From Mariniphaga sp. (GTDB taxonomy: Bacteria; Bacteroidota; Bacteroidia; Bacteroidales; Prolixibacteraceae), in assembly GCA_010906965.1 (NCBI GenBank), contig JAAFHB010000028.1, positions 1 through 33,531 on the forward strand: DNA of 33,531 nucleotides, in the 5' to 3' direction. This document shows, piece by piece, positions 10,432 to 15,813 of the stretch; position 1 is the first letter of the stretch, and each line of letters opens with the position of its first letter. A program made the translations under genes and the position numbers. The notes beneath the pieces are model-generated. The model made no database searches. It was not told the origin of the DNA and saw only the letters and a list, made by a program, of their open reading frames with translations.

Positions 10432-13400
10432 TTAGAAACTAATATTGGCACCAATCGAATAAGTTGAAGGGACCGGGAAGGTATTTGCACGAACCGGAGT
10501 TCCCATTTCAGGATCTCCGCCAAACCAGTTTGTCTTAGTTGCAAGGTTCTTGGCGCTTATAAAGACTTTCAATGAATTAATGTTTGCTGCTTTAATCCAA
10601 GGCTGACGAAATGTATATGCCAATGATACGTCCTGCACCCTCACAAATCCGCGTGACTGAAGTGCCTGATAGCGTCCATCACCCGTAAAATACGCTGAAG
10701 GATAAACATTGCTGTTGTTTTCAGGTGTCCAGTAAGGTTTCGAGGTCATATTGTCATTGAAACGCCCTGTTCCTGAAGTCATATAGGCAGCTGTGTTACT
10801 CTTCAGAAAGTAATTATTTCCTCCAAATGTTCCGGTAACCATCGCATAGAATTCGAAATTTTTGTAGCTGACAGTGTTACTCATATTTAATTTGAAGTTT
10901 TCCATGGTATAACCCAGGATCTTTCTGTCAGCAGAAGTTATTCCGGCAACTCCGTCAAGGTCTTTGTATTTTGGAGCACCTGGAGCAGCACCGGTCAATG
11001 CGATGTAATCGACATCTGTTGCCTGAACAATACCATCCTGTTCGAAACCATAAATAGCGCCAAGCGATTTCCCTATAAATAAAGAGTTGGAAATATCGTC
11101 ATCTTCCTTCCCGTCACCGTTCTTATCTTCACCATAAAGATGTACCAGCTTATTGCTGTTCTTCCAGTATGTAACCGAAGTATTCCATGTCAAATCCTTA
11201 GTTTTTACGTTGACCGATCGTATTGTCAATTCAATACCTGAATTATTAACCTGACCCATTGAAGCAAGGATTGTTTTAAATCCTGTCATTACAGGAATAT
11301 TCCGTGTGAAAATCTGATTCGTAGTTTGCGAACCATAAAGATCAAAATCGACGAAAAGCCGGTTGTTTAACCAGGCTGATTCAAAGCCGGTGTTCCAGGT
11401 TTCGGTTGTCTCCCATCCAAGATCTGAGTTTCCCAATGTATTCTGGAACAAGCCATAGTTGATTTTACCCTGTGCATCTGAATATTCATACCGGATACCT
11501 CCTGAAGTCCCGTTGGCAATCTTTGACAAAGTTTCATAAGGCCCAATACCCTGGTTACCATTCTGACCCCAAGAAAGTTTTAATTTCAAGCTGTTCAGCG
11601 GCTTAAAACTTTTCAGGAACGATTCGTTCGAAATTTTCCATGCTCCGCCAAATGCAGCAAAGTCGGCCCATTTGTTATTAGCGCCAAAAACTGATGCACC
11701 ATCACGACGATAGGAAGTAGTGAAAAAGTATTTGTCATTAAATGAATAACTTAAACGACCCAAATACCCAATATTGGCACGTTCGTCTATGTTTACATTC
11801 ACTTTTTGAACGGTTGCCTTCGCAAGACCCCAAATTCCAAGTGTTGTATTTCCGTTGGCAGCAAAATCCGATCCGGTTGAATTAACCTGCTCGTAGCGTC
11901 GGTAATCCCTGGTAGCCACCAATGTTGCTTCAATACTTTGTTTTTTGAACGTATTTTTATAATTAAGGATGTTATCAAAGACATAACTAAAAGTCTTATT
12001 ATTGTCAATATTCCCATTGGCACCCGCCAATAAGCCCACAACAACGGCAGGTGTATATCTAGCCAAACCTTCACCCTCCTTAATAAAGTAGTTTTCGTTT
12101 GTAAAGTTTCCGGATTGATTCTGATCGAGGTTCGTCAGCACATTCAACCGGTAATTCAGTCCTTTAACCCATGGACAATCGATTACAGCATAGGCATTCA
12201 ATCGGAAATTGTTACGCACATCCTTGTTGTCGCGTGTTCCATCCTGAACACCCCACATCGGATTTAGGGAAGATTGCGTATATGGATATTTTTCAAGATT
12301 CCCAAGTTCGTCGCGATAATTCACTCCATAAGGAGACATGGTTTGGGCTTCGCCGACATTGGCCGCGAAACCTGAATAATCTCTTCTCGAATAGCTGCCA
12401 TCTATTCCGATTTTCAGCCAATTGGTAATTGTCGTATTTACTTTACCTAACAAAGAAATCCGGTTGAAATCGTCACCGTTCACAATTCCTTTATTGTTGT
12501 TGTAAGATGTAGAAAGGTAGTAATTTACGTTTGTGGTGGCTCCCGATACCGCTATTTGATAGTCCTGAATCACCCCGGTACGCGTAACCTGATCAAGCCA
12601 ATTGGTTTCAGTTCCTGCAGCCAGATTGGCCAATTCTCCGGTTTTCATCCAGTTGGTCGAACCCTCTGCGTATTTATTACGTGCATTGACGACACTAATC
12701 CATTCTGTGCCTTTCATCATCTGAGGCTGACTTTGCCAGGTTTGAACGCCGGCAGAAGTATTAAATGTGATAATAGGTTTACCAATTGCACCTTTCTTAG
12801 TAGTGATTGCAATTACGCCATTGGCCGAACGTGAACCATAAGCAGCAGCAGAAACGGCATCTTTCAGAATATCAAAAGTGGCAATATCATTGGGGTTAAT
12901 ATCACCCAAACTTCCAAGATAAATAACACCGTCGAGCACAACCAAAGGGTCGTTAGAACCACTTATTGAATTCTGCCCCCGGATATCCATTGAAGGCTGA
13001 CCTCCCGCACTATTTGTAGCACCGATACTCAAACCGGCCACATTTCCTTTCAATGACTCGAGTGCATTGAGATTCGGAGCCAATGACACCATTGAATTTT
13101 CCATTTTTAACGAACTAACCGAACCAGTATAATCCTGACGTTTAGCGGTTCCATAACCAATGACAATTACCTCATCAATGGCCAGCTTATCTTCTTCCAA
13201 TAGAACATCAATGGTTTGTTTGCCCTGAACTGCAATTGTCTGGGCCTTCATACCCACGAACGAAAACTGCAATGTTGCATTTTCAGGGATGTTGGTTATT
13301 GAATAATTTCCGTCAGTATCTGTGATTGTTCCGTTAGTGGTTCCTGTTACAACAACGGAAACACCGGGAAGTGATGCACCAGTCTGATCAGTTACTTTAC

Positions 13401-13809
13401 CCTTGATTTTACGTTGGGCATCCTGAGGAAGCTTCATATCAATAGGTGAGATCACAATCTGCCTGTCGTAAACTGCATATTTGGCTTCCTTATTTGCGAA
13501 TAAACGGTCAAGGACAGAATTAATCTGTTCGTTGTTGGCCAGAATATCAACTTTTCGCTCAACATCAATCAGATCGTTGTTGTACAAAAAATAAAATTCA
13601 CTCGAGCGCTCAATTTCCTTGAGTACTTGTTTTACTGACGTTTGGTTTAATTTTAGTGATACCCGTGCAGTTTGGGAATAGGTACCGGTTGCCAAAAGGT
13701 TGAAAGTTGAAAACAGGATCAGTATCAGTGTAATTTTCATAGCAATTAATCCTTTCTTTAATACGGCACATCTGTTGCCGTCCGGAGAATATAATCCGAA
13801 TTTTTTCAT
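10432..13809 (-). CDS. SusC/RagA-family TonB-dependent transporter with STN signalling domain (PUL1)
   Basis: This 1125-aa outer-membrane transporter starts with the positively charged extension and hydrophobic signal (MKITLILILFSTFNLLA, from residue 24) common in long SusC proteins. Residues about 50-115 are an STN domain (QTSVKQVLKEIERSSEFYFL...ERKVDI...ILANN), which contacts a FecR anti-sigma factor. Then come a carboxypeptidase-D-like beta domain (KIKGKVTDQTGASLPGVSVVV), a TonB-box region DEVIVIGYGTAKRQD, the plug (LVVLDGVIYLG, DILKDAVSAAAYGSRSANG) and the 22-strand barrel ending in YSIGANISF. It imports oligosaccharide by TonB energy and reports substrate to the adjacent FecR/sigma pair. 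I kept the first ATG (13809) because the extension before the signal is normal in this subfamily. Confidence 0.94.
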   Translation of the reverse strand: MKKFGLYSPDGNRCAVLKKGLIAMKITLILILFSTFNLLATGTYSQTARVSLKLNQTSVKQVLKEIERSSEFYFLYNNDLIDVERKVDILANNEQINSVLDRLFANKEAKYAVYDRQIVISPIDMKLPQDAQRKIKGKVTDQTGASLPGVSVVVTGTTNGTITDTDGNYSITNIPENATLQFSFVGMKAQTIAVQGKQTIDVLLEEDKLAIDEVIVIGYGTAKRQDYTGSVSSLKMENSMVSLAPNLNALESLKGNVAGLSIGATNSAGGQPSMDIRGQNSISGSNDPLVVLDGVIYLGSLGDINPNDIATFDILKDAVSAAAYGSRSANGVIAITTKKGAIGKPIITFNTSAGVQTWQSQPQMMKGTEWISVVNARNKYAEGSTNWMKTGELANLAAGTETNWLDQVTRTGVIQDYQIAVSGATTNVNYYLSTSYNNNKGIVNGDDFNRISLLGKVNTTITNWLKIGIDGSYSRRDYSGFAANVGEAQTMSPYGVNYRDELGNLEKYPYTQSSLNPMWGVQDGTRDNKDVRNNFRLNAYAVIDCPWVKGLNYRLNVLTNLDQNQSGNFTNENYFIKEGEGLARYTPAVVVGLLAGANGNIDNNKTFSYVFDNILNYKNTFKKQSIEATLVATRDYRRYEQVNSTGSDFAANGNTTLGIWGLAKATVQKVNVNIDERANIGYLGRLSYSFNDKYFFTTSYRRDGASVFGANNKWADFAAFGGAWKISNESFLKSFKPLNSLKLKLSWGQNGNQGIGPYETLSKIANGTSGGIRYEYSDAQGKINYGLFQNTLGNSDLGWETTETWNTGFESAWLNNRLFVDFDLYGSQTTNQIFTRNIPVMTGFKTILASMGQVNNSGIELTIRSVNVKTKDLTWNTSVTYWKNSNKLVHLYGEDKNGDGKEDDDISNSLFIGKSLGAIYGFEQDGIVQATDVDYIALTGAAPGAPKYKDLDGVAGITSADRKILGYTMENFKLNMSNTVSYKNFEFYAMVTGTFGGNNYFLKSNTAAYMTSGTGRFNDNMTSKPYWTPENNSNVYPSAYFTGDGRYQALQSRGFVRVQDVSLAYTFRQPWIKAANINSLKVFISAKNLATKTNWFGGDPEMGTPVRANTFPVPSTYSIGANISF

Positions 13810-13822
13810 ATTTTTGCTTTGT

Positions 13823-13911
13823 TAAATGTTCGTTAATTATTTTTTTGTGTTGAATAGAAGACATTTAATCTTAACGGGGAGTGCGCCAACACTTTCCCGT
13901 TATTTTTTTTT
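13823..13911 (+). ncRNA. candidate cis-antisense sRNA opposite the susC leader (DonS-like)
   Basis: A strong + strand terminator (13873-13911) stands in the FecR-susC gap, where all annotated genes run on the minus strand. A TATTTTTG element at 13809-13816, overlapping the susC start codon, could be its -7 box (no clear TTTG 20 bp upstream), which would give an RNA of about 90 nt complementary to the susC 5' leader. In Bacteroides, sigma/anti-sigma-controlled PULs carry such antisense RNAs (DonS being the studied case) at precisely this position, and they repress the PUL. The transcript itself is inferred. Confidence 0.42.
13873..13911 (+). terminator. intrinsic terminator on the strand opposite to susC
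   Basis: AACGGG plus AGTG pairs with CACT plus CCCGTT (13873-13901, one small bulge), followed on the + strand by A and nine T (13903-13911). Read on the minus strand the hairpin is preceded by the A-run and followed by AAGATTAAATG, which is no terminator. The polarity is therefore antisense to susC. Confidence 0.7.
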
Positions 13912-13956
13912 ATTTCATTTATACCATAGGCTACGTGTTTAAATTTTATCTTTTTG

Positions 13957-14988
13957 TTAGTTAAAAATAATCTCCCGTTTCGAATACGAATTATCTGAAA
14001 GCCGTTTAGCTTGCTTAATCTGATATCGAATCGGAGATGATTTACTTAGTAGATCAAGCACTTGCTCGATTGGTTCATCCGTAAAGGTAGCCGTAAACCG
14101 ATACTCATTTAGTTCAGTATTGTTGATTTTAACAGTCACATTGTACCAATTTCCCAACTTATCGGCCACATTTTCAATCGGATCGTCGAAGAAAACCAAT
14201 TTACCGTCTTTCCAGCCAATAAATTTATCGAGGTCTTCTTCTGTAGATATATTGATTGCTTTATCTTTTGCATTAAACACGGCATGATCCGATGGCTTTA
14301 GTTCTGCCAATTGTTTTAAAATCCCTGCAGATTCCGTTTCCAGAATGACTTTTCCATGAACAAGGGTGGTGCTGATCTCTTCTGATTCGGGATAAGCCTG
14401 AAGATTGAATGAAGTTCCCAAAACCTTAATATTAAGATCGTTCGTCTTGACAATAAATGGTTTGGAAGGATTTGGTGTAACCTCAAAAAAGGCCTCCCCC
14501 ACCAGTTCCACTTTTCGGATTTCGCCTGTAAATTGAACAGGAAAAATCAGTTTACTACCCGAATTAAGGTAAACCGTCGTACCGTCGGGAAGTTGAAACT
14601 TCGACCGGGTGCCGAATATGGCAGAAACTTCCTGCATCATCGAAGGCTGTTCACTATTGACAAACTTTGGCACAGAGGTGTAGTAATAGATATACGTTGC
14701 CGAAAATAATCCTGCCAATATAAATACTGCTGCAACCCTTTGTAAGATGTTGAATATATTCGATTTTCGGGTGAACAACCGATACTTGGTTTTTTTCAGC
14801 GCGCTTTCAATATCAATTGGTACTGAATCAGTTTTTTGTTCCGATTCCTTCCAAAGCAGCTGGTAATCTTCAAATATTTTACGGTCAATATGATTCAATT
14901 CCAGGTGGCTTTTCAACTCCAGGCGTTCAGATTCTGTAAGTGTGCCACTAAGATATCCAGTCATCAATAAGTGAATGTTCTCCTGCAT
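13957..14988 (-). CDS. FecR-family anti-sigma factor (PUL1)
   Basis: This 343-aa inner-membrane protein regulates the ECF sigma factor encoded divergently. The N-terminal about 80 residues are cytoplasmic (MTGYLSGTLTESERLEL, a DUF4880-like sigma-binding helix region). A single transmembrane helix spans about 84-103 (RVAAVFILAGLFSATYIYYY). The periplasmic FecR domain follows (FGTRSKFQLPDGTTVYLNSGS, about 128-150; VELVGEAFFEVTPNPSKPF). The C-terminal about 75 residues are the DUF4974/STN-like domain (LVFFDDPIENVADKLGNWYNV) that interacts with the SusC STN domain. It precedes susC by 147 bp on the same strand. In known systems glycan binding by SusC/SusD relieves FecR restraint of the sigma factor. 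Length and domain order are typical. Confidence 0.93.
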   Translation of the reverse strand: MQENIHLLMTGYLSGTLTESERLELKSHLELNHIDRKIFEDYQLLWKESEQKTDSVPIDIESALKKTKYRLFTRKSNIFNILQRVAAVFILAGLFSATYIYYYTSVPKFVNSEQPSMMQEVSAIFGTRSKFQLPDGTTVYLNSGSKLIFPVQFTGEIRKVELVGEAFFEVTPNPSKPFIVKTNDLNIKVLGTSFNLQAYPESEEISTTLVHGKVILETESAGILKQLAELKPSDHAVFNAKDKAINISTEEDLDKFIGWKDGKLVFFDDPIENVADKLGNWYNVTVKINNTELNEYRFTATFTDEPIEQVLDLLSKSSPIRYQIKQAKRLSDNSYSKREIIFN

Positions 14989-15234: not shown

Positions 15235-15813
15235 TTGAAAATAAAGTATGAAAATGAGGGAAATGACCAATTCTTATTTACTCAGATGCAACTGGGGAAA
15301 GAGGAATCTTTCGATTTCATTTTCAGAAAGTATTACAAAGTTTTAGTGGTTCAGGCAATACGGTTTGTACACGATCAGGATTCTGCACAAAGCCTTGTGC
15401 AGGATTGTTTTATAAGATTTTGGGAAAAAAGGTTTGAGTTATCCGATTTTGGGAATATTTATTCCTATTTGTTTTTTATGGTACGCAACCGGTGTATTGA
15501 CCATTTGAGGGAGCAGCATCGGAATAATCATTTTCTGATTACCAGTCAGACAGATATTCCGGAGTACATTGCTGAGGAAAAGATTGATGCCAACGATCTC
15601 AGTTCCCATTTATGGCAGGAAATTGCCAAACTCCCCGATCGCTGTCGTAAAGCATTCGAATACAGCAGAATCGACGGATTGACTTATCAACAGATTGCCA
15701 AAAAAATGGGGATTTCCAACAAGGCAGTTGAAGCACTTGTAAGCAGGGCTTTGAAATCATTACGCGCTAATCTTATTGACTTCCTTGCTATTGTGATACT
15801 GTTTTTTAGATAA
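15235..15813 (+). CDS. ECF sigma-70 factor of the Bacteroidota SusC-linked type
   Basis: This 192-aa extracytoplasmic-function sigma factor shows region 2 (EESFDFIFRKYYKVLVVQAIRFVHDQDSAQSLVQDCFIRFWEK in sequence, about 22-66; core DSAQSLVQDCFIRFW) and region 4 (LPDRCRKAFEYSRIDGLTYQ then IAKKMGISNKAVEALVSRA, about 128-175). Start choice: an in-frame TAA at 15220-15222 limits the frame, and the only in-frame ATG (15286) would remove the residues NDQFLFTQMQLGKEE that align with the conserved N-terminus of the family, so the TTG at 15235 is the more likely start. It is transcribed away from fecR rather than ahead of it, a less common arrangement. Its job is probably to activate the PUL1 susC promoter once FecR releases it. 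Confidence 0.9.
   Translation: MKIKYENEGNDQFLFTQMQLGKEESFDFIFRKYYKVLVVQAIRFVHDQDSAQSLVQDCFIRFWEKRFELSDFGNIYSYLFFMVRNRCIDHLREQHRNNHFLITSQTDIPEYIAEEKIDANDLSSHLWQEIAKLPDRCRKAFEYSRIDGLTYQQIAKKMGISNKAVEALVSRALKSLRANLIDFLAIVILFFR

Follow-up and report, generated by a model that had tools for sequence, protein, structure and literature searches.

We predict that a short transcription unit lies antisense to the leader of a susC gene in Mariniphaga sp.: from a promoter box set on the susC start codon, the housekeeping sigma factor would transcribe as far as a terminator about 100 bp upstream of the gene, and we think it likely that the resulting antisense RNA of about 90 nt represses susC. As a conserved transcription unit the element is well supported by comparison of related sequences; its start, its expression and its repressive effect are what we infer from them.

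Organization of the locus

The window, by which we mean the whole 33,531-nt stretch of DNA that was analyzed, carries the following features around the 147-bp gap between fecR and susC.

10432..13809, minus strand: susC, the probable target, with STN, carboxypeptidase-regulatory-like and SusC/RagA domains; its ATG is at 13809
13809..13816, plus strand: predicted -7 box TATTTTTG (TAnnTTTG) of the antisense RNA, an exact match
13821..13911, plus strand: predicted antisense RNA of about 88-91 nt, from folds and a putative start 5-7 nt past the box
13821..13869, plus strand: 5' hairpin, 13821-13830 paired with 13860-13869 around a variable loop
13872..13911, plus strand: intrinsic terminator, a hairpin (13872-13902) followed by T9 (13903-13911), from the fold, paralogues and orthologues
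13924..13931, minus strand: sense motif GCCTATGG, probably part of the susC ECF-sigma promoter, present in 7/7 orthologues
13957..14988, minus strand: fecR, anti-sigma factor (PF04773 and PF16344)
15235..15813, plus strand: ECF sigma factor gene, divergent from fecR (PF04542, PF08281)

On the minus strand, 3' of susC, lie susD and two alpha-L-rhamnosidase genes, one GH78-type and one GH106. The ECF sigma and FecR genes adjoin susC, and this pair probably controls the PUL. According to PMC11697453, PULs for host glycans are as a rule governed by an ECF sigma factor with its anti-sigma partner. Because the ECF sigma gene is on the plus strand, the earlier description of all neighboring genes as minus-strand has to be amended. 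A second in-frame ATG of susC is found at 13740, 23 codons past the first, and the signal peptide seemingly begins there; many STN-type susC genes likewise have a second in-frame ATG some 20 codons on, at the apparent start of the signal peptide.

The antisense terminator and the predicted RNA

The original prediction began from a plus-strand hairpin followed by nine T, antisense to the susC leader, and this we confirm: the stem consists of 12 pairs between 13872-13883 and 13890-13902, with T13893 bulged and a loop at 13884-13889. We ruled out the hairpin as a sense terminator of fecR, as the minus strand has no T run after it. The 89-nt plus-strand RNA 13823-13911 folds with a z of -2.88, and none of 200 shuffles was as good, versus a z of -1.24 for its complement, with 20/200 shuffles as good. 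The 5' part of the window RNA, taken alone, folds no better than shuffles (z -0.2). At the gathering threshold, Rfam gave no match in either the window or the 10 related loci that were searched; at E values up to 5 there were two matches, both senseless and set aside, and no DonS family was among them.

A simple terminator scan of 8 kb found five terminator-like sites, versus 6.9 in shuffles, and so shows no excess. The bare terminator pattern could thus be explained by chance, and it is the sequence comparison with paralogues and relatives that settles the matter.

A predicted promoter box overlapping the start of susC

The box TATTTTTG overlaps the susC start codon (CAT at 13807-13809), T13809 lying opposite the A of ATG. 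A half-matched promoter had originally been placed at 13809-13816; the position holds and the half-match does not, for TAnnTTTG is matched exactly, on the start codon. The remark that there was no clear -33 element agrees with our results, in that no -33 TTTG stands out among 53 such units. The -33 motif was not found in Flavobacterium johnsoniae, according to PMC7366714.

Read in the sense direction, the box appears as CAAAnnTATG. Among the 16 gene starts in the window, susC alone has a start context of the TATTTTTG type. Near the starts of 19 STN-susC genes of this genome, [CT]AAAnnTATG occurs 19 times in all frames, 18 of them in the susC frame, from which it follows that the box and the genuine start codon coincide in a fixed register. 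We asked whether CAAAnnTATG could be a mere translation context and ruled this out: it is present at 1/25 of the other susC starts and 1/16 of the window starts, and its co-occurrence with the terminator in other taxa (below) also opposes that explanation.

Recurrence within the genome

The original prediction had called for a search of other fecR-susC gaps in the same genome. A FecR_C profile gave 30 matches, of which 24 read as FecR genes and the remainder are STN domains of susC, and TIGR04056 gave 56 susC matches. For 50 of the susC matches we inspected the start region, and likewise for two further susC found beside FecR (C275, C60); six susC at contig edges, and C60, were dropped for want of a usable start, and 45 were left to be scored. 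Twenty of these have an STN domain, each beside a FecR gene, and 25 lack it. For C88 and C406 the second in-frame ATG was chosen by hand, by which C406 alone gained an exact box. A terminator was called strong at a score of -12 or lower.

The outcome speaks strongly in favor of the unit. A strong antisense terminator precedes 19 of the 20 STN-type, fecR-linked susC genes, and 17 of the 20 carry the exact CAAAnnTATG, aligned with the ATG in an identical way; in C486 and C88 a T replaces the C. Among the 25 non-STN genes, by comparison, one (C241) has both features and 24 have neither. Sense-facing terminators at the same threshold number 0/20 in the STN-susC set and 0/25 in the other. The estimated contamination of this genome is 7.93%, and a few of the paralogues counted here might therefore stem from another organism. 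It is clear that the unit is not particular to the PUL at which it was first proposed (PUL1), being common to most fecR-linked susC genes of this genome and to some in other Bacteroidota.

Four individual cases deserve comment. The fecR-linked susC C24 (L034) has neither the box nor a sound terminator, retains GCCTATG, and is a natural loss of the antisense unit. For C241 (L067), FecR is absent from the 1.2 kb fetched, where a different type of reading frame, of greater length, lies upstream. C180 (L006, L038), counted among the 25 non-STN genes, is a fecR-linked susC with a misplaced start; its susC reads as frameshifted, yet the leader retains the antisense unit. In the true leaders of both C180 and C60, box and terminator are present.

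Conservation in the genus

We compared 17 other genomes of the genus, six of which gave a full match to the region. All seven sequences (the window and six orthologues) retain CAAAAATATG and with it the -7 box, GCCTATG and the terminator hairpin. The two arms of the 5' stem are likewise kept in all seven; on the sense strand they read ATTAAATG and ACATTTAAC. The loop between these arms differs in sequence and length across orthologues; the stem is kept in 7/7, with two inner pairs broken in one orthologue, and the T run of the terminator is interrupted in one (G012). RNAalifold returned two hairpins from the orthologues, with a compensatory change in 1/23 pairs and most pairs invariant.

A probable sense promoter

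Just upstream of the antisense terminator we observed (T)AACCTT and, after a spacing of about 12 nt, GCCTATG, in the window (about 13924-13934) as well as in L141, L156, L213, L219 and others. Of the 78 gaps that have an antisense terminator, 22 show GCC[TA]AT[GA] no more than 60 nt upstream of the A run on the sense strand, where plain shuffles averaged 0.67; TAACCTT is likewise frequent. We read these motifs as probably part of the ECF-sigma promoter of susC, in which case susC transcription would begin close to the point where the antisense RNA ends.

Other Bacteroidota

FecR searches yielded 12 named loci, and six of their genomes were followed. The survey sample consisted of 76 FecR-downstream stretches, a subset of those present in these genomes, and 24 loci from plasmid records; we left out L225, L226 and L233, in which no susC follows, and of the 97 remaining stretches three had no downstream reading frame, so that 94 were scored. 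The plasmid records OY7257xx-OY7260xx, labeled B. finegoldii, P. massiliensis and P. distasonis, hold many PULs and resemble pieces of chromosome. Terminators were sought in the 200 bp upstream of the chosen start. Both features were found in 35 gaps, the box only in 5, the terminator only in 20 and neither in 34 (Fisher p 7e-7). The choice of start among the first three in-frame ATGs gave preference to one with the exact box, which biases these counts toward the box. The exact box is absent from 20/55 terminator-bearing gaps of these taxa. Gaps with box and terminator were distributed as follows.

Sunxiuqinia: 14/19
Parabacteroides (P. distasonis): 5/12
Phocaeicola massiliensis: 3/7
Bacteroides: 3/8
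Sphingobacterium puteale: 6/20
Dysgonomonas: 4/16
Segatella (1 gap), Prevotella (1), Cytophagales (4), Crocinitomicaceae (4) and Saprospiraceae (2): 0/12, one of these gaps having a terminator alone

We also took a blind approach, using a covariance model built from 22 terminators of this genome (C24 excluded), which has 10 pairs, nine of them with at least one compensatory change. Against its own genome the best 19 matches are training sites, and six others have E values of 0.95 or worse. Run against 296 genomes of the phylum at E 0.01, the model matched 22 sites beyond its own genome, spread over 19 genomes. Thirteen of them (12 genomes) are antisense in a gap that separates a FecR gene from an STN-susC, both genes being identified by two HMMs built here, and the remaining nine are located elsewhere. 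At the 13 sites an exact box stands near the start in four and a T-for-C variant in another four, the exact box thus missing from 9/13.

Strand on which the fold is selected

The hairpin could alternatively act in the sense mRNA, as a structured susC leader that controls translation or stability, the T run being a by-product of an A-rich leader. The complement does fold (with the z of -1.24 given above), and susC leaders are A-rich. We therefore compared the strands by a symmetric stem search, in which G.T and A.C were treated alike and the stem had to adjoin an antisense T run. A stem passed in 82 of 114 regions, and in the antisense reading these stems hold 92 G.U versus 16 A.C pairs (p 4e-14); the corresponding counts in the control, 24 sense-facing stems found by the same search, are 12 and 20. 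Folding was better on the antisense strand for 65 of the 82 and on the sense strand for 17. This stem search is a looser test, and 4/25 non-STN regions also passed it. The excess of G.U over A.C indicates that folding is selected on the antisense strand and argues against a sense leader, as does the antisense -7 box that accompanies the hairpin. The antisense T run was itself selected by the search, yet sense-facing terminators are rare, occurring in 8 of the 94 surveyed gaps. We regard a function in the sense leader as very unlikely.

A different role for the terminator would be that of a guard, halting antisense transcripts that arise in or near susC before they reach fecR and leaving the short RNA without a job. 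This would account for the terminator without a regulatory RNA, and antisense promoters are common in AT-rich genomes, a point of caution raised in PMC7366714. Against it stand a box dedicated to the unit, whose position relative to the start codon is fixed, the conserved 5' stem and the 24/25 non-STN susC genes that have no such guard. Further, in 57 comparable units (median length 94, range 73-148) the 5' parts, with the last 40-45 bases removed, fold better than shuffles at a mean z of -1.9. We consider a guard alone quite improbable.

That the hairpin is a functionless accident beside T-rich DNA would agree with the finding that the bare pattern is no commoner in the region than in shuffles; it is contradicted by the recurrence at paralogous and orthologous places, and the survey of other taxa, the blind search and the strand comparison also go against it, so that we give it hardly any credence.

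Proposed mechanism

When the glycan is absent, the housekeeping promoter would make the antisense RNA, which would pair with almost all of the susC 5' leader, stopping about 12 nt short of the ATG. Pairing may block translation or hasten the decay of stray susC mRNA. Once the ECF sigma factor is released, transcription in the sense direction, driven by the GCCTATG promoter, would overrun and outweigh the antisense promoter, and this overrun could give the system the character of a threshold switch.

It is also conceivable, if unlikely, that transcription itself acts, through polymerase collision or promoter occlusion, and that the RNA product does little. The two promoters are indeed face-to-face, with the antisense box on the start codon and inside the sense unit. 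The conserved 5' hairpin and the strand-specific folding of the terminator nevertheless indicate a stable RNA, and a unit of 90 bp leaves little room for collision.

Relation to known RNAs

DonS of Bacteroides fragilis and the PUL antisense RNAs of B. thetaiotaomicron (Cao 2016, as cited in PMC7366714, PMC10994844 and PMC11697453) offer the closest description. According to these sources, DonS-type RNAs are 78-128 nt and antisense to susC (PMC7366714); B. thetaiotaomicron has ten more of them, five seen on northern blots (PMC7366714), and 32 annotated PUL-associated antisense RNAs, for which the correlations are negative and, in some pairs, positive (PMC10994844); and the mechanism of DonS repression is stated to be unknown (PMC11697453). 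The element at about 13821-13911 is best read as a DonS-type cis-antisense RNA, with transcription and repression predicted. The DonS-like unit of the original prediction is supported, since the element agrees with it in position and strand, in size, and in having both a terminator and a promoter box; the predicted length of 88-91 nt, both ends being predictions, falls inside the range of DonS-type RNAs.

As described there, DonS and the B. thetaiotaomicron RNAs share with the window unit a short length, a divergent orientation antisense to a PUL susC leader and a proposed repressive role, and the box-and-terminator unit itself also occurs in Bacteroides (3/8 gaps) and Phocaeicola (3/7). DonS, however, belongs to an N-glycan PUL and the window unit to an alpha-L-rhamnosidase PUL, and expression has been shown for DonS-type RNAs whereas the window RNA is predicted. 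GibS and FopS of Bacteroides are also short RNAs with sigma-ABfr promoters, and the susC-type mRNAs that they repress are targeted close to the start codon; according to PMC11697453 they act in trans through a shared seed, unlike the window unit, which would act in cis and is complementary to its own susC leader. The available text of PMC9723704 does not name such an RNA in Flavobacterium psychrophilum. In the literature we searched, we found no description of an antisense promoter overlapping a susC start codon, nor of a box-and-terminator unit outside Bacteroides, though either may be in print.

Implications

DonS-type RNAs have been described in Bacteroides. The sequence rule that emerges here (a box on the start codon, two hairpins, and a terminator near the sense start) allows them to be predicted from genome sequence only, and its reach covers Bacteroidales and Sphingobacterium, which makes the question of how they repress testable over dozens of natural units. 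The start region of susC would be under a double constraint, from translation and from the promoter that faces the other way. A broader reading, to which we give slightly less than even weight, is that each sigma/anti-sigma PUL across the Bacteroidota has its own antisense RNA, with a housekeeping promoter fixed on the susC start. Such a promoter, locked on the start codon, would be a brake built into every such PUL, to be overcome by transcription in the sense direction, and glycan use might thereby become all-or-none. A private brake of this kind would be present in most of the sigma/anti-sigma PULs of this genome.
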